A stretch of 64,000 nt of DNA from Alphaproteobacteria bacterium. Its GTDB lineage: Bacteria; Pseudomonadota; Alphaproteobacteria; UBA6615. The stretch covers positions 186,001-250,000 of the forward strand of contig JAJFIX010000006.1 of NCBI GenBank assembly GCA_021774575.1, given 5' to 3'. The notes beneath the pieces are model-generated. The model was not told the origin of the DNA, did not search any database, and worked only from the letters and a program-made list of their open reading frames with translations. A program made the position numbers and the translations under genes. Below, piece by piece: positions 19,815-35,714 of the stretch (positions are counted from its first letter, which is position 1; every line of letters begins with the position of its first letter).

Positions 19815-21269
19815 ATGCCCGCAAATCTCGAAAAGATTACGCCCTTAATATTGTCCGGCGGAGCGGGAAGTAGGTTATGGCCGGTCTCACGTTCTAGCAT
19901 GCCCAAACAATTACTTGCGCTCGGATCGATCCAATCAATGATCGCGGAGACGGCAACCCGCGTCGGAGGAGATGGGTTTGCCGCGCCGATTGTGGTTTGT
20001 AATAAAGATCATGTATTTCTTATTTTCGATCAGTTGACCAAAGCAGGCATAGAGCCTCAAAAAATGGTGGCGGAGCCTGTAGGGCGCAATACGGCAGGCG
20101 CTATTGCGGCGGGCCTGCTGGCATCATCGTCAATTGACGATGCGAGCCTGATACTGGTCTTGCCGTCTGATCATGTAATTGGTGATTCCAATACCTTTCT
20201 TGACGCGATAGCGTCTGGCGCGATCGCGGCGCGGGCGGGCCATATTGTCGCCTTCGGTGTCGTGCCCGAGCGTCCCGAAACCGGTTATGGGTATATAGAG
20301 CATGGCGGTGCGATTTCCGGCGCGCCGGCTGCGCTTTCGATTAGCCGATTTGTTGAAAAACCTGATCTCGAAACTGCGACAAGTTATATGGCGGCAGGAA
20401 ATTACAGTTGGAATGCTGGCATATTCCTGTTTTCCGCTCGCACAATCATTGAGGCGTTTCAGCTGCATTCTCCGGCGATATTCTCCAGTGTGCAAAATGC
20501 GATTGACGGGGGAAACGTGGAAAATATTACTGTGGACCTTGGTGGGGTTTACGCAGAAGTTCCGGCCGAACCGTTCGACATCGCGATTATGGAGAAGACA
20601 GATCGGGGCGCGGTTGTGCCCGTTTCAATGGGATGGAGTGATATCGGATCTTGGCATTCATACTGGACTATGATGCCAAAAGACGAAGCGGGGAATGTCA
20701 CAATCGGTGACGCAACACTCATTGAGTGCAGCAATTCCTTGATTTGGAGTGGCGGCGATACGGTTACGGCAGCGGTCGGGGTGAGCGACCTGATTGTCAT
20801 CGTGACCGATGATGCAGTCCTTGTTCTCGACCAAGGCCGTTCCGAACACGTGAAAGAGATTGTCGATAAATTTCAGTCCGAAGGCCGGAACATTCAGGCC
20901 GTCGGGTCGACTGTATTTCGACCGTGGGGGAATTATCGGACCCTCGATACGGGGCCCGGATTTTTGGTCAAGCGCATTGTCGTCAATCCCGGCGCCAGCC
21001 TATCGCTGCAATACCATCATCATCGCGCAGAACATTGGACGGTTGCGGCGGGTGAAGCCAAGGTCACTGTTGGTGAACGAGTTTTCAATTTGGAAAAAAA
21101 CGGGTCGACGGATATCGCGATCGGCGAGGTCCATCGGCTGGAAAATACCGGAACCGAACCGCTACATCTGATCGAAGTGCAGACCGGTGATATTTTGCGC
21201 GAGGATGATATTGTTCGACTGGAAGATCGATACGGCAGAATTGAGGGCAAAGACAAAAACGAAAATTAG
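19815..21269 (+). CDS. manC: Mannose-1-phosphate guanylyltransferase / mannose-6-phosphate isomerase
   Basis: A 484-residue bifunctional enzyme that makes GDP-mannose. The nucleotidyltransferase domain (about 1-340) starts with the GTP loop SGGAGSRLWPVSRSSMPKQLL region and has VEPVGRNTAGAI-like and FVEKPDLETA motifs. The C-terminal cupin domain (about 365-475) carries the isomerase signature FRPWGNYR, the metal-site segment YHHHRAEHWTVAAGEA and GEVHRLENTGTEPLHLIEVQ. Its product is the substrate of the neighbouring gmd. It converges on fcl with a 4-base overlap at their 3' ends. Confidence 0.96.
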   Translation: MPANLEKITPLILSGGAGSRLWPVSRSSMPKQLLALGSIQSMIAETATRVGGDGFAAPIVVCNKDHVFLIFDQLTKAGIEPQKMVAEPVGRNTAGAIAAGLLASSSIDDASLILVLPSDHVIGDSNTFLDAIASGAIAARAGHIVAFGVVPERPETGYGYIEHGGAISGAPAALSISRFVEKPDLETATSYMAAGNYSWNAGIFLFSARTIIEAFQLHSPAIFSSVQNAIDGGNVENITVDLGGVYAEVPAEPFDIAIMEKTDRGAVVPVSMGWSDIGSWHSYWTMMPKDEAGNVTIGDATLIECSNSLIWSGGDTVTAAVGVSDLIVIVTDDAVLVLDQGRSEHVKEIVDKFQSEGRNIQAVGSTVFRPWGNYRTLDTGPGFLVKRIVVNPGASLSLQYHHHRAEHWTVAAGEAKVTVGERVFNLEKNGSTDIAIGEVHRLENTGTEPLHLIEVQTGDILREDDIVRLEDRYGRIEGKDKNEN

Positions 21270-22222
21270 GCGGCCTCTGCCTTACCGGAATTTAAATACC
21301 AGGCGTAAGTTGCCTCTAAGCCCGCACCCAGTTCTGTCTGAGCAGCCCAACCGGCCTTGGTCAGACGTCCGACATCGAGCAGTTTTTGTGGCGTCCCATC
21401 CGGTTTCGAATTGTCGAAACGAAGCCCGCCGTTAAACCCAACAACGTCACATATTTGGCGCGCGATTTCGGCAATCGTAACGTCTGCGCCGGTACCGATA
21501 TTGACAAAATCTTCGCCGGAATAATGCTTCATCAAATGAATAGCGGCGTCGGCAATATCATCCACATACATGAATTCGCGCCGCGCCTTTCCCGTACCCC
21601 AAACATCCATGAATTCCATTTTTCCGACCTTTGCCGAATGGGCCTTGGACATGAGTGCGGGTATGACATGGCTGGAGGCAAGATCGAAATTATCGCCGGG
21701 GCCATAGAGATTTGTCGGCATCGCCGAGATAAAGTCGCAGCCATATTGCCGACGATAGGCTTGGCATAATCTTATGCCGGCAATCTTGGCTATCGCGTAC
21801 CACTGATTGGTCGGTTCCAATTCTCCGGTAAGCAGCGCGTCTTCGCGCATAGGCTGGGCGGCGAATTTTGGGTAAATACAGCTCGATCCCAGAAAGAGAA
21901 GCTTTTTTACACCAGCTTTTCGGGCCGCTTCGATAATGGAGTTTTGGATTGCCAGGTTGTCATAAATAAATTCAGCTGGTCTGGTGTCGTTTGCCAAGAT
22001 GCCGCCGACTGTCGCCGCTGCAATGAAAATAGCGTCTGGCTTTTGGGCGTCGACCCATGTTTCGACATCTGCCTGGCGTGTCAGGTCCAAGGTGGAGCGC
22101 GGAACCGTCAGCAAGTCACAAGACTCGCTCTCCAGGCGCCTGCAAATGGCCGAACCAACCATACCGCGGTGTCCCGCAACCCAAACCCGTCTACCGTCTA
22201 ATGAAAACATGCGGTCAATCAT
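21266..22222 (-). CDS. fcl: GDP-L-fucose synthase
   Basis: A 318-residue extended short-chain dehydrogenase that epimerises and reduces GDP-4-keto-6-deoxymannose to GDP-L-fucose with NADPH. The nucleotide loop is [12 protein letters not shown] (residues about 14-25), the catalytic triad is in SSCIYP and [13 protein letters not shown] (Tyr/Lys), and [13 protein letters not shown] follows. The start overlaps gmd by 8 bases, so the two are translated as a unit. With manC this completes the path from mannose-1-phosphate to GDP-L-fucose. Confidence 0.96.
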
Positions 22223-23285
22223 CTCTGTTTACCCGGCCCTGCTCATTTTGGACGAGAGCAAGGTCGCTGCTTACCATTTCGGCTACTAGGTCGGCAAATT
22301 TTGTATTTGCTTCCCAGCCAAGTATTTCACGCGCTCTTGTTGGATCCCCGCATAGCAAATCGACTTCGGTCGGCCGAAAATATCGGGGGTCAATTTGGAC
22401 GAGAACATCACCGGTTTTACCGTCTATACCTGTTTCCTCTGCGCCTTCTCCGGTCCAATTAATATCCTGACCGACATGTGAAAAGGCGAGTTCGACGAAC
22501 TCACGAACCGTATGAGTTTCTCCGGTTGCTAAAACGAAATCGTCCGGCTCATCTTGTTGCAGGATCAACCATTGTCCTTCGACATAGTCGCGCGCATGCC
22601 CCCAGTCGCGTTTGGCATCAAGGTTTCCGAGATAGAGTTTCTTCTGCAATCCGAGTTCAATCGCCGCCACGGCGCGGGTAATTTTTCGAGTGACAAAAGT
22701 CTCGCCGCGCGTCGGGCCTTCATGGTTGAACAAGATGCCGTTGGACGCGTGCATGCCATAAGCCTCACGGTAATTGACCATTATCCAATAGGCGTAAAGT
22801 TTAGCCACAGCATATGGCGAACGCGGGTAAAAAAGGGTCTTCTCAGTTTGCGGTGTTTCTCTGGCCTTTCCGTATAATTCGGATGTCGAGGCTTGATAAA
22901 TTCGAGTGGCGTTTTCCAAGCCCAAAATTCGGATGGCTTCGAGCAACCGAAGCGCGCCCATTCCGTCGGCGTTGGCCGTATACTCTGGGGATTCAAAACT
23001 CACCGCCACATGGCTCTGCGCCGCTAGATTGTATATTTCAGTCGGTTGAATCTTCTGGACCAGACGAATGAGATTCGAAGAATCCGTCATATCACCGTAA
23101 TGCAGAATGAAGTCGACATCCATTTCATGCAGGTCCTGGTAGAGATGATCCACTCGGGACGTATTAAAGGACGATGAGCGCCGCTTTAACCCGTGAACTT
23201 CGTATCCTTTGGAGAGCAGCAGCTCGGCCAAATATGCGCCATCTTGGCCGGTTACACCTGTTATGAAGGCAATTTTTTTGCTCAT
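22215..23285 (-). CDS. gmd: GDP-mannose 4,6-dehydratase
   Basis: A 356-residue extended short-chain dehydrogenase. It has the NADP loop [15 protein letters not shown] (residues 10-24), [31 protein letters not shown], and the catalytic [14 protein letters not shown] (Tyr/Lys). It converts GDP-mannose to GDP-4-keto-6-deoxymannose, the substrate of the next gene. The N-terminus follows directly on the ATG at 23285. About 245 bases separate it from the divergent asnB, enough for two promoters. Confidence 0.97.
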
Positions 23286-23530
23286 TTAGAATATTCCAGT
23301 ACTGTCCAGTTTACTCAGGTTTCAAAATTGCCGACGGGTGTTGTCACAATATGTTATCCACTCTGTCAGCACCGCCACAAATTAATACTGTTCGCTTCAC
23401 GCAAAGGCCGTCGCATTTGATAACAATCTGGTGCCGATCGTTATGAAACCCTTCCAAAAATGGCTGTCTGGAACTAATACCGTGGGTGCCTTTGCGATGA
23501 TCACGGCCGACTAAAAGAGGGAAAGGCCAT

Positions 23531-25474
23531 ATGTGCGGATTTGCCGGTTTTATTGACCTCCAGCCTAAGCGCGACGCCGAGACATTGAGCGGAATTGCCC
23601 GCGCGATGAATGATCGGATAAGGTGGCGTGGGCCCGACGATGAGGGCACCTGGGTGGACGAGCGCAATGGTGTAGCACTTGGCCACCGGCGGCTGTCGGT
23701 GATTGATCTCTCGCCGAATGGCCACCAGCCAATGGTTTCCTCCTGTGGGCGCTATGTTATTATTTATAATGGGGAAGTCTATAATTTTCGGGAACTGCGT
23801 GCCGAGCTCGCGGCAGGGGGAAAAAGATTTAACGGCCATTCCGACACCGAGGTGATAGTTGAAGCCTGCGCGGCATGGGGGGTGGTGGCGACGGTCAAGA
23901 GACTGATTGGAATGTTTGCGTTTGCTCTGTGGGACCGGGAAACGCGCACGGTGACTCTGGTGCGCGACAGGCTTGGCGTCAAACCTCTATATTGGGGACA
24001 TCAGGCGAGCACCATTTTCTTTGCGTCACAGTTGGGGCCGTTTGAGGTACATCCAGATATCGATTTGGAAATCGACCGTAACGCGTTGTCTTCTTATATG
24101 CGTCATTCTTATGTGCCGGCGCCGCACAGCATTTACCAGGGCATTTCTAAATTGGAACCGGGGCACATAATTACGGTCCCCTTGGATGGCGCGGCGCAAT
24201 CTTCCTGTTATTGGGATATGCGTTCGGTTGCCAAGACCGGCAGAGGTAATCGCGTTGAAATGAGCGACGACGAAGCGGTAGGAGCTTTGGATGCTCTGTT
24301 GCGCGATGCCGTAAAACAACGCATGATTGCCGATGTGCCATTGGGGGCATTTTTGTCGGGCGGGATCGACAGCTCTAGCGTTGTTGCTTTGATGCAAGCG
24401 CAAAGCGACCGACCGATAAAAACTTTCTCTATTGGCTTTCATGAAGACGGATATGATGAAGCGCAGCATGCTAAAGCCGTTGCAACGCATATTGGTACGG
24501 ATCATACCGAACTTTATGTCGATCCTCGTCACGCCCTGGACGTCTTGCCCGGTATATCGCGCTGGTATGACGAACCGTTTGCCGATAGCTCGCAGATACC
24601 GACTTACCTTGTTTCTGAAATGACCCGCAAACATGTTACGGTGGCATTGTCTGGGGATGGTGGGGATGAATTATTTGCGGGTTATAACCGATACCCATGG
24701 GGTGAAGCCCTTTGGAACCGATTTGGCCGTTGGCCCAAAGGTTTGCGCAAGGCCGCTGCCGGGTTTCTTCGGTCGGTTCCATCCGAAAGATGGGATCATG
24801 TTTTGCGTTTGCTTCCCAATAAGATACGACCGTCTCAGGCGGGCGACAAAGTTCACAAAATTGCGCAAATCCTACCCGTCGACGGGCAGGATTCCCTTTA
24901 TCGGCGATTGGTATCCCAATGGGAGGATCCGGCCCAGCTAGTCTTGCGCGCGCAAGAGTATAAAGGCATCCTTTGGGACGATACCGTTCGAGAAGATTTT
25001 CCCGATTTTGTTGATCGCATGCAATTCTTGGATGCCCAGACTTATTTGCCCGACGATATTTTAACCAAGGTCGACCGGGCCTCCATGGCCGTATCTTTGG
25101 AGGCACGGGTGCCGCTATTGGATCATCGGATTGCGGAATTTGCCTGGCGTCTGCCCAGACATATGAAAATTAGGGATGGTCAGGGCAAGTGGTTGTTGCG
25201 CCAGGTTCTATATAAATACGTGCCCAAGAAGCTAATTGAACGTCCTAAAATGGGTTTTGGCGTTCCTATAGATCGCTGGTTACGGGAAGATTTGCGTGAA
25301 TGGGGGGAAGACCTGCTAGATCCAACCCGGTTGCGCGATGAGGGAAATTTTAACGTAAAACTAGTCCGGCAGGCGTGGGACGAACACCAAAAGGGGACGC
25401 GCAATTGGCAGCATCCCTTGTGGACGGTCCTGATGTTTCAGTCATGGAGATATGAACGTAGTTTCCAAGGCTAA
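23531..25474 (+). CDS. asnB: Asparagine synthase (glutamine-hydrolysing)
   Basis: A 647-residue class B enzyme. Cys2 of MCGFAGF is the nucleophile of the glutaminase domain, with RRLSVIDLSPNGHQPM and YNGEVYNFRELR following. The synthetase domain has the ATP loop SGGIDSSSV (residues 276-284) and the LSGDGGDELFAGY motif. In many bacteria asnB-like genes next to nucleotide-sugar genes amidate sugars or act in polysaccharide clusters, so free asparagine may not be the only product; that is inference from the neighbours. A GAGGGAAAGG sequence precedes the ATG. Confidence 0.93.
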   Translation: MCGFAGFIDLQPKRDAETLSGIARAMNDRIRWRGPDDEGTWVDERNGVALGHRRLSVIDLSPNGHQPMVSSCGRYVIIYNGEVYNFRELRAELAAGGKRFNGHSDTEVIVEACAAWGVVATVKRLIGMFAFALWDRETRTVTLVRDRLGVKPLYWGHQASTIFFASQLGPFEVHPDIDLEIDRNALSSYMRHSYVPAPHSIYQGISKLEPGHIITVPLDGAAQSSCYWDMRSVAKTGRGNRVEMSDDEAVGALDALLRDAVKQRMIADVPLGAFLSGGIDSSSVVALMQAQSDRPIKTFSIGFHEDGYDEAQHAKAVATHIGTDHTELYVDPRHALDVLPGISRWYDEPFADSSQIPTYLVSEMTRKHVTVALSGDGGDELFAGYNRYPWGEALWNRFGRWPKGLRKAAAGFLRSVPSERWDHVLRLLPNKIRPSQAGDKVHKIAQILPVDGQDSLYRRLVSQWEDPAQLVLRAQEYKGILWDDTVREDFPDFVDRMQFLDAQTYLPDDILTKVDRASMAVSLEARVPLLDHRIAEFAWRLPRHMKIRDGQGKWLLRQVLYKYVPKKLIERPKMGFGVPIDRWLREDLREWGEDLLDPTRLRDEGNFNVKLVRQAWDEHQKGTRNWQHPLWTVLMFQSWRYERSFQG

Positions 25475-26998: not shown

Positions 26999-29263
26999 CT
27001 AAATCTGGTCCGGTTTATGGTTTTGGGCAGGGGAATCGTTCAAACGAAACTCAGACAAGACTTCGAATTTTGCCGAGAGCGTCAAATCCCGCGGTCGGGA
27101 CGAGGGGCCCACATAAATTGTGAATGTGCCCGCCTCCACAATGCCGTGCCCATTCGGGTGCCAGATCGCCATTTCCTCAGGGGCAATGTTAAGGCTAACC
27201 GTCCGGTTTTCCCCAGGTGCTAAGAAAACGCGTTGCCAGGCACATAGTTTTCGGGCCGCACGAGTTCGACTGCCGACTTCGTCACAAATGTAGACTTGCG
27301 CCGTCTCAGTGGCCGGGCGGTCGCCGATATTGCGCAGGCAAAAAGTTACCGTTGCAGCATCTCCGTCGACCAGTTCCTTGTGGCTCATCTGCAAGGAATG
27401 GTATTCAAATCGGCCATAAGTCAGGCCTTCGCCGAACGCGAAAACAGGAACGGCCAGAGCCTCAGGTAAATCACAATATTGGTCGTCAAAATGCCATCCA
27501 GGGCGCTGATCATAGCGCACCGGTGTTGCTCCACCATGGCGGGGGAAGGTTACGGTCAGACGGCCGGATGGCGAAATGTCTCCAAAAAGCAACTGCGGCA
27601 ATGCATCCCCGCCGCGCTCACCAGGATTCCAAATACACAAAAAGGCGTCAGCCAACTCGGCGACCGCATCGATAATGAGCGGCCTATTTGCCATGTAAAC
27701 GACAATGAGGGGTCGCCCGGTGTTCTTGAGTTCCTCAATCAGTTCGTCTTGGCGACCCGCTAAGTGAAGCGATGCACGGTCGTGCTGCTCGCCGGCCATC
27801 TCGCGACAATCGCCGACCACGGCGATAATCACATCGGCCTGGCCACCGATTTCGGTCGCCACGGATACGTCCGACCGGTCATTGTCAGTGAGCTCACACC
27901 CATAATGACTAACGACGTCAATGCCGCGCGCTTGGCAGTAGTCTTTCATGCCCTGCAGCAGGGTCACGCAGCGTTGCGGCCCCTCCTCAACGTTTCGCGA
28001 TAACCAGCCATCGCGCCCCACCAAGCCAAGGGACCAATCGCCAAGTTGCTCGACAACGGAATCGATCGCCGGACCAATAAGTGCAATTTTTCCATTTTTC
28101 GAGGCTGAAAGCGGTAACAATTTGTCGTTCTTTAAAAGTATTGCAGATTGAAGTGCTGCCTCCAGCGCCAGCGACTTGGCGGCCTCGGTGTCCGCGATAT
28201 TTCTCCCCCTCGAAAGACGGTTTGGCTCTTCCGTTTCCAATAACCCGAGCTTTTCCTTCATCTCCAGCACGCGCAGACAGGCCGTGTCGATATGGTCCTG
28301 ACCGACTTTTCCGTGTTCGAAGGCAGATTTCAGCGCCGCAGGAAAGTTCGGTGTCCCCATTACGATGTCGGTTCCATTGGCGACGGCAATCGCTGCGGCA
28401 CTCTCCAGGTCCGGTGCCACCCGGTGAAGGTCGACCAATCGATCGACATTTTGCCAGTCGGTCAGGACCAACCCGTTGAACCCCATTTGGTCGCGCAGTA
28501 GGTCTTGCAGCAATGCGCCGTTGGCAGTGCAGGGAATGCCGTCGACAGCATGATAGCCAGCCATCACCGACGCCGGCCGAGCCTTCAAAGCGTGCCGCCA
28601 TGGCGAGAGCGTCTCGGCCTGCAAGGTCTGGCTACTCGCCGCATATTCGGTCGAATCTCGACCGCCAAGGCCTTCAGAATATCCTGCGAAATGCTTGGCG
28701 CAGGCCAGAACAGATGTCGACCTGTCCGCACCGCAACCTTGAAAACCTCGGATACTGGCTGCCCCCATCAGCCCGGCGAGATAACCGTCTTCCCCGGCGG
28801 TTTCACCAATGCGTCCGAACCGCGGATCACGTGCGGTATCCATGACCGGCGCCAATGCCCAATGAATATTTGTCGCGATCATTTGGAGCGCTGTGGCTTC
28901 GCCGATAAGTTCGAAAAGTTCGAGGTCCCATGAGCTTGATAGGGCGATCCGTGTCGGAAATGTCGTGCCCTCGTTCCAGAACGAATGCCCGTTGATGCAA
29001 TCCATGGCAAACAGCGGCGGTATGGAAAGCCGATGTCGTGCTGTCAAATGGGATTGGAGGACCGATGCGATTTCGCCTTGAACATTGATTATCGACCCGG
29101 TGTGAACCGCCGCCATATGCTGTACGGATTGATGATTGGGAATATCACCAAGATAAAGTTTCCGTCCATCAAGCATGCACAGCTGCCCAATTTTTTCGTC
29201 AAAACTCATCTCGCGGAGGATGGCATCGGGCCGTGCGTATGACTGGGGCTGCTGTTTGCTCAT
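26999..29263 (-). CDS. Glycoside hydrolase family 3 beta-glycosidase
   Basis: A 754-residue GH3 enzyme that removes terminal beta-linked sugars such as glucose or xylose. The TIM barrel carries HWALAPVMDTARDPRFGR, CAKHFAGYSEGLGGRD and the nucleophile Asp269 in GLVLTDWQNVD. The alpha/beta sandwich domain follows, and the C-terminal fibronectin III-like domain begins near residue 640. No signal peptide, so it acts in the cytoplasm on imported oligosaccharide. It is the last gene of the lacI operon, 39 bases after the GH63-like gene. Confidence 0.93.
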   Translation of the reverse strand: MSKQQPQSYARPDAILREMSFDEKIGQLCMLDGRKLYLGDIPNHQSVQHMAAVHTGSIINVQGEIASVLQSHLTARHRLSIPPLFAMDCINGHSFWNEGTTFPTRIALSSSWDLELFELIGEATALQMIATNIHWALAPVMDTARDPRFGRIGETAGEDGYLAGLMGAASIRGFQGCGADRSTSVLACAKHFAGYSEGLGGRDSTEYAASSQTLQAETLSPWRHALKARPASVMAGYHAVDGIPCTANGALLQDLLRDQMGFNGLVLTDWQNVDRLVDLHRVAPDLESAAAIAVANGTDIVMGTPNFPAALKSAFEHGKVGQDHIDTACLRVLEMKEKLGLLETEEPNRLSRGRNIADTEAAKSLALEAALQSAILLKNDKLLPLSASKNGKIALIGPAIDSVVEQLGDWSLGLVGRDGWLSRNVEEGPQRCVTLLQGMKDYCQARGIDVVSHYGCELTDNDRSDVSVATEIGGQADVIIAVVGDCREMAGEQHDRASLHLAGRQDELIEELKNTGRPLIVVYMANRPLIIDAVAELADAFLCIWNPGERGGDALPQLLFGDISPSGRLTVTFPRHGGATPVRYDQRPGWHFDDQYCDLPEALAVPVFAFGEGLTYGRFEYHSLQMSHKELVDGDAATVTFCLRNIGDRPATETAQVYICDEVGSRTRAARKLCAWQRVFLAPGENRTVSLNIAPEEMAIWHPNGHGIVEAGTFTIYVGPSSRPRDLTLSAKFEVLSEFRLNDSPAQNHKPDQI

Positions 29264-29302: not shown

Positions 29303-30619
29303 TTAGTCCGCCTCTACAGGTTGGGCCGAAAGCCATGTCAGGCGCATTGCGGCTGTCCAGGAAAAACAATCCCCCCCCAACCCCTGACCGTTTTCCGGGT
29401 CGAAATATTCCCGAAATCCACTTTGGTCGATCAAGGCCCTCGTGTCGTCGGCAATAATTTTTGCCAGATCTCCATGACCCGCCGCAGTCAAACCGTCGGA
29501 AATCATCCAATTGATAATTGCCCAAACCGGGCCGCGCCAATAACGTTTCGAATCAAACCTCGGGTCGGTCGGATCGAAGCTCGGCACGAGGTAGCGTGTA
29601 TGGTCGCGCCAGGACCATAGGCGTTTGACCAAGGCTTGCGTTTGCGCGGGCTCTGTTGCGTGAGCGAACAAAGGTAAGAATGTTGAGGCCGAAATCGACG
29701 TGATCGATTGATCGGCCGCGTAATCATAGGGTTGGAAGCTTTGCTGTGGCTCGCTCCATAATGATTGCAGGCCCATTTTTCCCTTTTTTACCCAACCGTC
29801 GACTTCTTCGGTTAGATGGGAGGCCCCCACGTATTCGACCAACCATTGCAGATCAATATTGCTCCGCTGCAGGAGGGAGTTAACAAAAAGATCGGCCACT
29901 CGAAACGGTGCGACGGGCGCAATTTCCGATTGTTTCCATCCTAGATTGCTATAACGATGAACCAATGTCAGATATTTATCATAATCGGAATTGGTCGGGC
30001 GATGCTCCGCCACACTGTGTTCGGTGTCACGGCGTTCGTAAGGGGGGATCTCATCGACCGGCACGTTCGCCAATGATGCATCCCAGTCGACGCTGTTATC
30101 TGCGCCGGATTCCCACGGATGGATTGAAACGACCAATCCGCTATTATTGAGTTCGCGCGCTGCATAGAACCATCGATGCCAAGCGGCAATTTTTGGGACG
30201 AGACGGGCGCCAAATTCAAGTGCCGTCTCCTTGTCGCGTGCCGTCTCGATTAATTGGCGCACACAGGTTGCGGCAACCGGCGGCTGGGTAATGCCCGATG
30301 TTGCCGGCGATTTTCCGGTCGCCCAGACATCCGGCCCGGGGAAATAGCCGGTATCTTCTTTGTGAAAGACAATGTGCGGCACCATGCCGTCGTCCCACTG
30401 GGCTGAAAAAAGTGTTTCGATTTCGGTCCAAGCGCGGCCCTCATCGAAGGTCGCCCACCCCAATGCCGTTAGGCAAGAATCCCAATTCCATTGAAATGGA
30501 TAGAGTCCTCGCGCCGGTATCGTATAGGTGCCGCGGTCATTCTGACGCAGTATTTTCCTGGCCTGATCGAGTTTTTCTTCAACCAAGTCGGTCGGCGTCG
30601 TGCCGTTCTCAGCTACCAT
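29303..30619 (-). CDS. GH63-like (alpha/alpha)6 glycosidase, mannosylglycerate/glucosylglycerate hydrolase type
   Basis: A 438-residue cytoplasmic enzyme with the (alpha/alpha)6-barrel signature of GH63/trehalase-like hydrolases: GLYPFQWNWDSCLTALGWA near residue 41, QWDDGMVPHIVFH, SIHPWESGADNSVDWD and YWRGPVWAIINWM. The acids in WDS and ESGADNS are probable catalytic or binding residues. The size and motifs fit the bacterial mannosylglycerate or glucosylglycerate hydrolase group. This suggests that the operon takes up an osmolyte-type glycoside, but other alpha-glucosides are possible. Confidence 0.8.
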   Translation of the reverse strand: MVAENGTTPTDLVEEKLDQARKILRQNDRGTYTIPARGLYPFQWNWDSCLTALGWATFDEGRAWTEIETLFSAQWDDGMVPHIVFHKEDTGYFPGPDVWATGKSPATSGITQPPVAATCVRQLIETARDKETALEFGARLVPKIAAWHRWFYAARELNNSGLVVSIHPWESGADNSVDWDASLANVPVDEIPPYERRDTEHSVAEHRPTNSDYDKYLTLVHRYSNLGWKQSEIAPVAPFRVADLFVNSLLQRSNIDLQWLVEYVGASHLTEEVDGWVKKGKMGLQSLWSEPQQSFQPYDYAADQSITSISASTFLPLFAHATEPAQTQALVKRLWSWRDHTRYLVPSFDPTDPRFDSKRYWRGPVWAIINWMISDGLTAAGHGDLAKIIADDTRALIDQSGFREYFDPENGQGLGGDCFSWTAAMRLTWLSAQPVEAD

Positions 30620-30643: not shown

Positions 30644-31888
30644 TCATCCCTTGACGCTTCCTGCGGTAAGGCCGGCGACCATAAAGCGCTCAAGCCAAAG
30701 AAAAATGATCATGACCGGCAGCGTAACAATGACGGCGCCGGCCATCAGAAATTGTCTCGGTACTTCCGAACTATTGAGCGAGACGATACCCCGCGAAAGG
30801 GTGAAAATTTCCGGGTTGTCGAGAAACATGAAAGCGAAGAGAAATTCGTTCCAGGCGATCATGAATGTATAAATGGAAACGGAGGCCAGCGCGGGAACGC
30901 TTAATGGCAATGTGATACGCCATATTATGCCGACCCGGGAGCAGCCGTCGATAAGTCCTGCCTCTTCGAGTTCGCTTGGAATACTGCGAAAATAGCCTTG
31001 CAGCATGTAAAGGGTGACCGGCAGCGTTGCCGCCGGATAGACAATCAGGAGGCCAACCAACGTGTCGCGCAGGCCCAGTTGGCTGAATACGCTATAGAGC
31101 GGGATCACCAGAACGATTGCCGGGAACATGTAGATCAATAATATCGAATTTGACATCAGCACCCGACCGGGAAATCGCAGACGCGAAACGGCGTAGGCAC
31201 CTGGCACGGCGAGCAACAGAGTGACTATTACAGTTGTTAGTGAAACGAAACCACTGGTCAGAATGTAGCGGCCAAAGTTGAAGTTAACGATGACCTCCCA
31301 ATAGCCGACAAATAGAGACTGGAAGCCTTGGGAAAAATTGAGACTGAGATCAAGCGGATCAATCAGCAGTTCAGCCCGTTTCTTGAAGCTTGAAACGATC
31401 ATGTAATAGAAAGGTGCGGCAACAATGACGATAAAAAAGGCAAACCCGTAGAGGCGCAATGTACGAAGAAAAAGCAGCTCAGTGTCGTCGCGGGTGAACT
31501 TGCCAATTGCCAACCCGTCGAGCGACGACCGGACGATGAATTCCACACCGATAAATGAAATGAGTGCGCCCCCGCCCCCCCAAAACAGGCCGGCGTTCTC
31601 GAGGGGCAAACCGAAAGGCATGCCTCGCGATAGGGCCAAAAAAACGGTTACGCCGGTGGCGGTTGAAATTAGCGCCCTCAGGTTTTTTCTAATCTGCAAG
31701 CTGGTCAAGACACTGTAGGCAACACCGTGACCCAATCCAGCCGCACAAGCGATAGCGACCGGTAAAATATTGGGTTGAAGGCCAATCACTGTCGCCAGAA
31801 TTCCCCAAATCGGAATAATCAATAGCGCCGCAAGCAATCCGGCGAGTGCTGCCGCGATGGCACCGCTAACAGATATTTTATCGGTCAC
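30644..31888 (-). CDS. Sugar ABC transporter permease (MalG type) with N-terminal membrane extension
   Basis: A 414-residue inner membrane protein. Residues from about 145 form a standard MalG-type permease with six helices and the EAA loop EEAGLIDGCSRVGIIWRI that docks the ATPase. The first 140 residues are additional and hydrophobic, with about four further helices (around 8-35, 40-62, 72-88 and 103-119). MalG proteins are usually near 280 residues, so this is a fusion or an unusual extension. The start overlaps the end of the MalF-type gene by 4 bases. No ATPase gene is present in the operon. Confidence 0.9.
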   Translation of the reverse strand: MTDKISVSGAIAAALAGLLAALLIIPIWGILATVIGLQPNILPVAIACAAGLGHGVAYSVLTSLQIRKNLRALISTATGVTVFLALSRGMPFGLPLENAGLFWGGGGALISFIGVEFIVRSSLDGLAIGKFTRDDTELLFLRTLRLYGFAFFIVIVAAPFYYMIVSSFKKRAELLIDPLDLSLNFSQGFQSLFVGYWEVIVNFNFGRYILTSGFVSLTTVIVTLLLAVPGAYAVSRLRFPGRVLMSNSILLIYMFPAIVLVIPLYSVFSQLGLRDTLVGLLIVYPAATLPVTLYMLQGYFRSIPSELEEAGLIDGCSRVGIIWRITLPLSVPALASVSIYTFMIAWNEFLFAFMFLDNPEIFTLSRGIVSLNSSEVPRQFLMAGAVIVTLPVMIIFLWLERFMVAGLTAGSVKG

Positions 31889-33147
31889 AGCATTTCACCC
31901 TTCGGCATGAAGATGAAATAAAACACCATGAAAATCGCCAGCATGAAAAAGATAACAACGGAAACAGCTGCGCCGGCGCCAAGATTTGACAGGGCAAATG
32001 CCTGGTCATAAACGCCAACCGTCAATGTGCGTGTCCCGGCATTACCCCCGGTCATCAGAAATATGTCATCGAATTTATTGAACGTCCAAATGAAGCGCAG
32101 CATGAACAATATCGAAAGGATTCCAACCAGTTGAGGCATTGTTACGAAGCGAAATTTTTGGATGGGACTCGCCCCATCGATATCGGCGGCTTCATAGATA
32201 TCGCTTGGTAGAGCCTGCAGGCGGGCTAAAATAAATAGGAACGAAAGCGGAAAATACCGCCACGCTTCGAAGGCAATAACGGTCGCCAGCGCGACTGGGA
32301 ACTGCACTACAAAGCCAAATAATTCGATGGGCATGACGCGGGTGCCAAGAAAATTAATCGGCGCTTCGACCAACTCATACCGCACCAATAGCATGTTGAG
32401 AACGCCGCTGAAGGGATCGAGGAAAAACACCCAGGTAAATGCGACAGCGATGACCGGCGCGACAAATGGGAATAGGAGCAGCCCCCGAATGACCGCTCGG
32501 CCCCTGAAACTGGTATTCATCAGTAAGGCGGCAAACAGGCCCAGGGCGATTGCACCAATCGTTCCAAATACTGTGTAAATGACAGTGATCCGGACGGATT
32601 TCCAAAATTCGCGCTGACTAAAAACTTTGCGGAAATTGTCGAGGGTGAAATTGAAGTCCAGTAGTGCATTCACCGAGTGTCCGGTGGTCGTAGTTTCGCT
32701 GTCGCGCGGATTGATCCCGCTGGCAAAAAACTCCGGAGTGGCATCAAATAAAATTGAAATATCTTCCCGAAACCGCGGTGGCCATATTTCGTAGGAGCAT
32801 GTAATGGCGTCCTCATCAATCTCGCAAAATTGAGGTACGTCCCTTGCCGACAAGCCTGCTGGAACGGTGTCGCGAAGAACAATGTCCTCGACGGCACCTC
32901 TGCTGGAGCGATTTCGTAAACGATATAAAACGGTAACTGTGCCGTTCTGGGGGTCCTCACTCACGCGCTCACTCACGCTGGGTGTGGGCGCGCGCAAATC
33001 GGCAAGTTGGATATCCTTAAAACTGATCCAAATATCGGCTAAAACCGGAAAAAGCACAATCAAGAAAACGATCGTTACCGGCGGTATCAGCATGCCATAG
33101 GCAAGCATTACCTCCTTTTGCCGCATAGTCATTTTTTTCAACGACAT
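31885..33147 (-). CDS. Sugar ABC transporter permease (MalF type) with DUF11-like periplasmic insert
   Basis: A 420-residue inner membrane permease. Helix 1 spans about 17-37. Instead of a short loop, residues about 55-145 form a periplasmic domain with alternating beta strands (TVTVLYRLRNRSS, VEDIVLRDTVPAGLSA) and cysteines at 108 and 117 that could form a disulfide. This resembles the DUF11 Ig-like repeat of surface proteins. The remaining helices and the EAA loop EAADIDGASPIQKFRFV are normal. It pairs with the MalG-type protein. A substrate- or wall-binding role for the insert is inference. Confidence 0.88.
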   Translation of the reverse strand: MSLKKMTMRQKEVMLAYGMLIPPVTIVFLIVLFPVLADIWISFKDIQLADLRAPTPSVSERVSEDPQNGTVTVLYRLRNRSSRGAVEDIVLRDTVPAGLSARDVPQFCEIDEDAITCSYEIWPPRFREDISILFDATPEFFASGINPRDSETTTTGHSVNALLDFNFTLDNFRKVFSQREFWKSVRITVIYTVFGTIGAIALGLFAALLMNTSFRGRAVIRGLLLFPFVAPVIAVAFTWVFFLDPFSGVLNMLLVRYELVEAPINFLGTRVMPIELFGFVVQFPVALATVIAFEAWRYFPLSFLFILARLQALPSDIYEAADIDGASPIQKFRFVTMPQLVGILSILFMLRFIWTFNKFDDIFLMTGGNAGTRTLTVGVYDQAFALSNLGAGAAVSVVIFFMLAIFMVFYFIFMPKGEML

Positions 33148-33259: not shown

Positions 33260-34609
33260 TTAGATATTCGTAAGTTCAATAACAAGCGCGTCATACGTGC
33301 TTTCCACTGACCGTTCTCCGTCAATGAATTCGCGGACCAAACGGTTCAGAACGCGGCTATTGATGAACTTGGATGCCTGGACCAATTGGCCTTCGGCTAC
33401 ACCCCAACGATCGGCTGTATCGAGACCGGAAACGATCTCCTGGATCACCGATGCGGGATACAGGCTGGCAAGCGATGCCTTACGATCAACGCCGACATCA
33501 AGTGTAGACCAGAGGTCGATAAAGGCGCTTGGATCGTCCTGGGTACCACGACGGACCGGAAATTTGCCCTCGGGGGCAATGCCCAAAATCTGGCCATAGC
33601 CTTCGGAAAGGGCGAACTCGACAAAGGCGGTCGCGGCATCGGTATCGGCATCGGTCGTAATGCCGAGATAGGTGACGCTGCCCCACGAGGCACCAGCAGC
33701 ATTACTCGGCCCGGCAAGTGTCGTGACCACGCCCGTCACTTCGGCGAGTGCACTGGATGTCGGGTCGCTGTTAAAGGTCGGCGGAGCGGAATCGCGCAGC
33801 CCGGCCAGCTCGTCCAAAATAAACGGTGACCAAATGATCATCGCCGCTTGACCGGCAAGGTAGAGTTCACGCGACTGCTGCCAAAAGAGCTCGCCCTCGG
33901 GGCTGGCGTCGGCGAGGGATTTATAGAAATTGAGCGCCTCAATTGTCCGTCCCCGATCAAGATTGAGCTGTCCATTTGGGGCGACCAGCCGAATGCCATT
34001 GGCCAGGAATACATGCTCGAGCAACTGCTCCATGTAAGATTCGTCAACCTTGGTCGCGGCGACAAACCCAAATACACTCGGCGGATTATGTAGCGCGGCA
34101 AGTGCTGCCTGGATATCGGCGTAGGAATCGGGTGCTGCGAGACCGGCTGCATCGAAAAGATCGGTCCGGTAAAGGATCATTTGCGTCCAACCATCGGTCG
34201 GAACACTGGTAATCGTGCCTCCAACCCGCGCCATATCCAACGCACCTGGTGCAAATGTTTGTTGGCCTAGGGCGGCAATGACGTCGCCGGCCGCGTCATC
34301 ATCCAGAATACCGGCATCGGCCCAAGAGCCAAGAACGGTCAGCGGATGCTGCACAATGTCGGGCAAGTCGCCCGCGCTAAACGCTGCCGTGACACGCGTG
34401 TTGAGGTCGCTTTCCTCAATCGGCACCAAATCAATGGATACACCGGTCGCGGCTTCATATTGAGCGATCAACGCTTCTTGCCGGGCAATACGGACTGGCT
34501 GGTTTTCTGTCGTCCACCACTCCAAATTCTGGGCGCTCGCCGGCACGATCGCCGCCGTCGACGCAAGCAACGCCGCGCCCAATACTGAACGTGTTAATAT
34601 GTTTCGCAT
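33260..34609 (-). CDS. Extracellular sugar-binding protein of an ABC transporter
   Basis: A 449-residue periplasmic binding protein of the MalE-like family 1 type. The signal peptide is MRNILTRSVLGAALLASTAA with cleavage after ASA-Q near residue 27. The mature protein begins NLEWWTTENQPVRIARQEAL. I chose the ATG at 34609 because GGGAGG lies five bases upstream; the longer frame to 34660 has no such site and would spoil the signal peptide. It is the first transport gene after lacI on the same strand and is followed by two permeases. Confidence 0.9.
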   Translation of the reverse strand: MRNILTRSVLGAALLASTAAIVPASAQNLEWWTTENQPVRIARQEALIAQYEAATGVSIDLVPIEESDLNTRVTAAFSAGDLPDIVQHPLTVLGSWADAGILDDDAAGDVIAALGQQTFAPGALDMARVGGTITSVPTDGWTQMILYRTDLFDAAGLAAPDSYADIQAALAALHNPPSVFGFVAATKVDESYMEQLLEHVFLANGIRLVAPNGQLNLDRGRTIEALNFYKSLADASPEGELFWQQSRELYLAGQAAMIIWSPFILDELAGLRDSAPPTFNSDPTSSALAEVTGVVTTLAGPSNAAGASWGSVTYLGITTDADTDAATAFVEFALSEGYGQILGIAPEGKFPVRRGTQDDPSAFIDLWSTLDVGVDRKASLASLYPASVIQEIVSGLDTADRWGVAEGQLVQASKFINSRVLNRLVREFIDGERSVESTYDALVIELTNI

Positions 34610-34697
34610 AACATCCTCCCTTTTCTTCAGTTGGTTAGAGTTTCGTTCGCTTGGTCTCACTTTGCTTAGAATCTCAGTTTCCTCTTTTCTCAGACCC

Positions 34698-35714
34698 TTA
34701 CTTCGAATGACAAATGCCGTCGGATTCTCTGACGATCAGACGCGGTTGCCACAAATCCTGTAAGTCCTCGATCGTGGATCCCGATATTCGTGACAGCAGC
34801 ATTTCCGCGACATGCGCGCCGGCTGGACGAATTGGTTGATGTAGGGTGGTGAGCGGTGGCTCGGTATATTTGGCGAATGGCAGGTCGTCATATCCGATTA
34901 TTGAAACGTCGGTCCCGACAGTTCGACCGCATTCTTTGACCGCGCGCATGGCGCCCAATGCCATTGCGTCACTTGCACAAAGTAAGGCCGTTGGCGGTCG
35001 ATCCAGACCCAGTAACCGTTCAGCCAGCCGGTGTCCGTCGACTTCGCCCCGGTCGCCTTCAACGATCAATTCGGGATCGCATTCCAGACCGGCGTCGCGC
35101 AGCGCCCGTTCGTAGCCGTGGCGCCGCAACAGCGCGAAGTGTAGATCCTCCGGCGCGTTGATAAGGGCAATCCGACTATGACCAAAATCGATCAGCCGTT
35201 CGGTGACTTGGATGAAACCGGCCTCATTGTCCATATCGAGAAAAGCGTGCTGGGCGCTCTCTCCGGATCGGCCGAAAGTGACAAATGGAAAATTCCGCTC
35301 CAGCAGATAATTGATGCGTGGATCCTTGGTCCGTGTACGCGCGACGATCAGACCGTCAACGCGCCGACCTTCTACCATTCGGCGATATGCGCTGAGCTCT
35401 TCTTCGCCGGTCGGTGCCGCGACGACCAGGAGATCCATATCTGCCTGGTGAAAAACCTCGGCCACACCGGCAAGAAATTCCGAATAGAAAGGATCGCCAA
35501 AATTACCAACCCCGACCGACATGATGACGCCGACCGCCTCCAGGCGGCCCTTGGCCAAACGCCGCGCGAGCGGATTGGGTGAATACCCCACTTCGCGTGC
35601 CGCGTTCGTCACGCGTTCGCGTGTTGCGGCACTCACATCCGGGTAGCCGTTTAGCGCCCGCGATACGGTGGTCTGTGATAAGCCGAGATGCTTTGATAGC
35701 CGTTTTAGATCCAT
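34698..35714 (-). CDS. LacI-family transcriptional regulator
   Basis: A 338-residue repressor. The N-terminal HTH is LKRLSKHLGLSQTTVSRALNG, followed by the hinge helix NPLARRLAKGRLEAVGVI. The periplasmic-binding-protein-like sensor domain follows (VTFGRSGESAQHAFLDMDNE, CASDAMALGAMRAVKE, IGYDDLPFAKY). The first gene of the minus-strand sugar operon. Two perfect AAAGCGCTTT palindromes lie just upstream of its start, so it probably represses the whole operon and itself until a sugar ligand binds. Confidence 0.93.
   Translation of the reverse strand: MDLKRLSKHLGLSQTTVSRALNGYPDVSAATRERVTNAAREVGYSPNPLARRLAKGRLEAVGVIMSVGVGNFGDPFYSEFLAGVAEVFHQADMDLLVVAAPTGEEELSAYRRMVEGRRVDGLIVARTRTKDPRINYLLERNFPFVTFGRSGESAQHAFLDMDNEAGFIQVTERLIDFGHSRIALINAPEDLHFALLRRHGYERALRDAGLECDPELIVEGDRGEVDGHRLAERLLGLDRPPTALLCASDAMALGAMRAVKECGRTVGTDVSIIGYDDLPFAKYTEPPLTTLHQPIRPAGAHVAEMLLSRISGSTIEDLQDLWQPRLIVRESDGICHSK

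Follow-up and report, generated by a model that had tools for sequence, protein, structure and literature searches.

An ABC permease of the MalF type, from an alphaproteobacterium, carries in its first periplasmic loop one immunoglobulin-like domain that sequence comparison and structure prediction support as a true relative of DUF11 (CLIPPER). The importer itself is of a known kind; the Ig-like periplasmic domain appears to have been recruited to it independently. We consider it fairly probable that the domain was inserted once and that it acts, much as the P2 domain of E. coli MalF does, as a dock for the soluble binding protein of a mannosyl/glucosylglycerate-type importer, and the docking is a testable hypothesis. 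A search of the literature found no paper on DUF11 in permeases or on Ig-like domains on ABC importers. With this protein DUF11/CLIPPER moves from the context of adhesins onto an inner-membrane importer, the likely substrates of which, mannosyl- and glucosylglycerate, are compatible solutes.

The permease (P0001, 420 amino acids) is encoded on the minus strand of the window, that is, of the whole 64,000-nucleotide stretch of DNA that was analysed, at positions 31885–33147 with its ATG at 33147; these are exactly the coordinates given in a preliminary description of this DNA, and the plus strand of the same interval is non-coding, with stops throughout. All coordinates given below for parts of this gene and for its operon refer likewise to the minus strand. 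The permease has a MalF/UgpA-like core (BPD_transp_1 match over residues 199–412, E 1e-11), an EAA loop, a paired MalG and a binding protein, as is characteristic of type I ABC importer permeases of the MalF type. Its first transmembrane helix spans residues 8–42 (33022–33126) in the AF2 model, with a hydropathy peak at residues 19–37, and the core with the EAA motif occupies residues 167–415 (31903–32649). The extra periplasmic domain follows helix 1 and precedes the core helix that lies near residue 179. Its presence there, as noted in the preliminary description, holds up, and it is kept in 80 orthologues; its length, put at ~90 residues, does not, as the insert comprises ~110 (residues ~53–163; 32659–32991). 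These limits can be drawn because sister permeases mark the edges sharply. At the same junction a loopless relative from Nonomuraea reads ...FQSVRLINIRRTGVFGQYTLENF..., while the window permease reads ...FKDIQLADLR-(about 110 aa)-FNFTLDNF....

The window's own loop, taken alone, has no Pfam DUF11 match, and an NCBIfam scan likewise gave nothing useful, so that relatives are needed to see the relation. When 37 orthologous loops were scanned singly, PF01345 (DUF11) was listed at E ≤ 10 for 32 of them, with a best E value of 8.9e-7, and the related DUF7933 for 29. Whole orthologues score 22–24 bits against DUF11 (23.8, 22.8 and 22.1; E 6e-5 to 2e-4), mostly just below the Pfam cut-off of 24.6 bits, and the domain is therefore mostly missed by routine annotation; plasmid records of the protein name it only “sugar ABC transporter permease.” In a reverse search, the loop profile picks up proteins with tandem DUF11 repeats (G430/G424) at E 5e-7 to 8e-10, the DUF11 assignment of which is confirmed by Pfam, and it also matches, at a marginal E of 0.02, a 3449-aa DUF11 protein of the same genome. 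Profile–profile comparison by hhalign of the loop family with 19 DUF11 repeats gives a probability of 97.2% (E 3.6e-11, 76 columns). A sequence search of the PDB with the loop profile returned no meaningful match. The 3449-aa open reading frame, which lies outside the window (G000:C16:24838-31170), contains at least 13 tandem DUF11 repeats and is probably a surface protein.

Structure prediction points in the same direction. Folded alone by AlphaFold, the loop forms a confident beta-sandwich (pLDDT 92.3, pTM 0.82) of eight strands, within the seven to nine of a CnaA-like Ig beta-sandwich, and this model aligns over 102 residues with the solved CLIPPER domain 9IFR (Z 10.2, rmsd 2.4). In the full-length AF2 model a seven-strand sandwich core is seen at residues 56–136 (32740–32982; pLDDT about 85–93). 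The membrane core of that model is poor (mean pLDDT 67.5), because the alignment contains close relatives only, and the loop part alone was used, together with the separately folded loop. Against the loop model, 9IFR scores no higher than AP2 mu and other E-set Ig folds; the fold alone is thus unspecific, and specificity for DUF11 comes from sequence. The matches to AP2 mu, CBM2, alpha-2-macroglobulin and integrin were judged to reflect generic Ig/E-set resemblance. Two of the best three Foldseek matches are the Cellulomonas fimi cellulose-binding domain (6QFS), as might be expected if the domain itself bound carbohydrate or a cell-wall polymer in the manner of CBM2, so as either to raise the local concentration of substrate or to tether the importer to the wall. 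We regard such a role as quite improbable: the likeness is one of fold only, E-set Ig folds resembling CBMs, clathrin adaptors and integrins alike; the sole conserved aromatic position of the insert is Y75; and sequence homology indicates DUF11. Profile HMMs, the reverse profile search, profile–profile alignment and structure comparison all agree on the DUF11-like identity first proposed from the raw sequence, and the AlphaFold and profile–profile checks show a fold that is not unrelated to DUF11.

The insert contains the VLRDTVPAGLS motif and the two cysteines reported for it earlier, and it shares with DUF11 repeats N79, the D93-x-x-P-x-G motif and the cysteine pair. Among the 81 sequences, Y75, R78, N79, D93, P96, G98 and E60 are kept in 78–80, while Cys108 (32824–32826) and Cys117 (32797–32799) are invariant (81/81), the two lying opposite each other across a predicted hairpin of strands 108–111 and 114–122. 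A Lys-Asp-Asn isopeptide bond is frequent, though not universal, in the family that has been renamed from DUF11 to CLIPPER (PMC12617251). Here, Asp93 is kept in 79 of 81 sequences, but the alignment places Glu60 (32968–32970; 80/81) at the position of the lysine, so this bond is impossible. Given their facing positions in the hairpin, Cys108 and Cys117 probably form a disulfide that takes the place of the isopeptide bond. The insert differs from canonical DUF11 domains in other respects as well: these are found in tandem in secreted surface proteins, whereas the insert is a single copy within a polytopic membrane protein, and it has conserved charged positions of its own (E60, R63, R76, R78, and R127), which are not apparent in the DUF11 repeats used for the alignment. 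Overall, mean identity to the window protein is 32% for the insert versus 66% for the core, making the insert about twice as divergent.

A scan of 84,980 species genomes yielded 209 relatives, the best 80 of which were used as orthologues (81 sequences with that of the window). All of these best 80 of 209 match over their full length, insert included; 79 are alphaproteobacterial (some by inferred assignment) and one is a Deinococci MAG. Further MalF-type permeases with the same insertion were thus found in these 80 orthologues, with the binding protein matched in 79 loci. The carriers are (mostly marine) alphaproteobacteria: the full-length loop occurs in 8 of the 289 genomes of a class sample and, in the class and phylum samples together, in alphaproteobacteria only, the non-alphaproteobacterial matches in the phylum sample (349 genomes) being DUF11 repeats and none of them permeases. 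Beyond Pseudomonadota, the view consists of the one Deinococci MAG and a plasmid collection. In a tree of permease cores, a single branch (89/92; 91% of bootstrap trees) sets all the loop carriers apart, and loopless permeases from Nonomuraea and Haladaptatus are among their nearest relatives. Among the proteins compared, all with a core identity of at least 56% have the loop and none at 48% or below does; the loopless sister permeases, at 44–48%, have a linker of roughly 10–20 residues at the insert site. The most divergent loop-bearing permease found (L116, G243:C43), at 56% core identity, comes from an alphaproteobacterial genome of 1.0 Mb that is 79% complete. As judged from these sequences, the DUF11 domain was probably gained once, in an ancestor of the alphaproteobacterial importer, since a single insertion, independent of P2, fits one clade of carriers with loopless near relatives.

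The comparison with P2 bears directly on this last point. In E. coli MalF, P2 comprises residues 91–271 and touches MalE (PMC3150292), and large P2 loops have been described in the eight-helix MalF proteins of enteric bacteria and Thermotogales (PMC2246101). The window permease resembles these proteins in bearing a large periplasmic domain before the same core helix, the position also expected of a MalF_P2 (PF14785) domain; position 169 of the family profile aligns with MalF 260, near the end of P2, and the topological slot is thus the same. One could imagine, then, that the insert is a divergent P2 inherited from an ancestor shared with enteric MalF, both occupying one slot between equivalent helices and both being beta-rich. 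Such descent is very improbable in our estimation. An hhalign comparison of the insert with three P2 sequences gives a probability of just 0.07%, the MalF_P2 Pfam family is listed neither for the window permease nor for any of the 37 orthologous loops, close sister permeases have no domain at this site at all, with the carriers forming one clade among them, and the insert-bearing permease has six TM-like hydrophobic segments, not eight. P2 is also longer (about 180 residues vs. about 110), unrelated in sequence, and found in another lineage, on proteins with two additional N-terminal helices that the window permease lacks. That MalF chains are not among the fold matches listed carries no weight either way. 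The shared slot, the hhalign result and the domainless close sisters together bear out the earlier suggestion that the loop arose independently of E. coli P2; at the level of sequence it falls outside the MalF_P2 family. The closest solved permease core is that of SugA (7CAD; an LpqY-SugABC type trehalose importer; E 4e-31), which has about 8 residues at the site where the window permease has about 110.

Since an unrelated domain fills the slot of P2, it was probably acquired independently as a docking site for the binding protein, a role that is plausible by analogy with P2. In the mechanism that we propose, one DUF11/CLIPPER Ig-like domain would have entered the first periplasmic loop once, in an ancestral alphaproteobacterial importer. 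It would rise from the membrane on the permease, performing a P2-like function without P2 homology, and would be locked by the Cys108–Cys117 disulfide where stalk DUF11 domains use an isopeptide bond. The conserved face made up of E60, R63, R76, R78, and R127 may be the landing site for the soluble binding protein which, once docked, would pass its substrate to the MalF/MalG pore; a cytoplasmic GH63 enzyme would then free glycerate and hexose.

Patterns of co-divergence are consistent with the docking proposal. Distances among loops correlate with those among binding proteins given core, MalG, GH63 and LacI (partial correlation 0.25, permutation p 0.002), the highest value of the four partners; MalG follows with 0.16 (p 0.03), LacI with 0.15 (p 0.03) and GH63 with −0.09. 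As LacI is unable to touch the loop, its 0.15 sets the background of this test, and the excess for the binding protein is weak. The lipobox pattern is found in 0 of 79 related binding proteins, some with start sites not resolved, whereas in both loopless sisters that were looked at the binding protein is a lipoprotein. This contrast, a hint from two cases, would suit a domain that captures binding protein as it diffuses freely. On the other hand, sequence change is much faster in the loop than in the core, which would not be expected of a rigid, specific interface, though the binding protein could co-vary with the loop, and many Gram-negative sugar permeases, presumably served by soluble binding proteins, lack any such domain.

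A purely structural role is the main competitor. Since DUF11 domains elsewhere are stalk or spacer modules (PMC12617251), a disulfide-locked Ig module might merely steady MalF/MalG or aid membrane insertion, leaving the binding protein untouched. The MalG partner (414 aa; 30644–31888) offers a possible packing surface in an extra lineage-specific N-terminal membrane region (residues 1–140; 31469–31888) of about 140 residues with 3–4 TM-like segments, in which Pfam finds no domain; the region is kept in the relatives L019, L023 and L138 and is missing from the MalGs of the same loopless sister systems (283 and 299 aa). The correlation of loop with MalG just described is in keeping with this role as well, but it is weaker than that of loop with binding protein, and the loopless sisters manage without the domain; we hold assembly or stabilization alone to be unlikely, if clearly less so than carbohydrate binding. 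Returning to docking, we would give an even chance to a broader proposition: that a binding-protein dock on MalF has arisen convergently at least twice from unrelated material, once as P2 and once as DUF11 accompanied by the extra MalG membrane region. Why MalF should have a P2 domain at all, given that most sugar permeases do without one, is a question for which a second, independent case is the best guide. This family supplies such a case: its sister permeases are natural loopless controls, and the insert is delimited well enough that it could be removed or transplanted.

The substrate assignment rests on the surrounding operon. Upstream of the permease gene lie a solute-binding protein with an ordinary signal peptide and no lipobox (33260–34660; likely start near 34609) and a LacI-family regulator (34698–35714); downstream of MalG follow a GH63 enzyme resembling mannosyl/glucosylglycerate hydrolases (29303–30619) and a GH3 glycosidase, apparently co-transcribed in the window (26999–29263). 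Matches to this gene set in the 80 related loci number 80 for MalF, 79 for the binding protein, 78 for MalG, 76 for GH63 and 70 for LacI, while GH3 has no match in any of them. Related operons usually continue with a MalK-type ATPase; that of the window has none, with the GH3 gene in its place, and its importer probably relies on a MalK-type ATPase encoded at another place in the genome.

The closest solved relative of the GH63 enzyme is TTHA0978 (4WVA), a Thermus mannosylglycerate hydrolase (E 3e-125), followed by the glucosylglycerate hydrolase of M. hassiacum (MhGgH, 6G3N). All 15 of the 15 MhGgH active-site residues checked are kept, a count that excludes Gln434 for want of a clean mapping; they include the catalytic pair Asp182/Glu419 and the glycerate contacts Tyr36, Trp40, Tyr88, Arg216, and Tyr375. 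Against the NCBIfam glucosylglycerate hydrolase model the enzyme scores 362 bits, below the cut-off of 550. A MOFRL-type glycerate kinase is encoded upstream on the same strand at L138:918-2195 and in 13 of the 80 loci, and Limimaricola has one upstream too, which matches the release of glycerate predicted for GH63; the window genome has a relative elsewhere. Because of the GH63 active-site residues and the glycerate kinase neighbors, the importer's substrate is likely to be mannosylglycerate and/or glucosylglycerate. Near the operon, at 21266–25474 of the window, are, as read from the sequence, sugar-nucleotide epimerase/dehydratase-like and asparagine synthase-like genes, possibly a surface polysaccharide locus.
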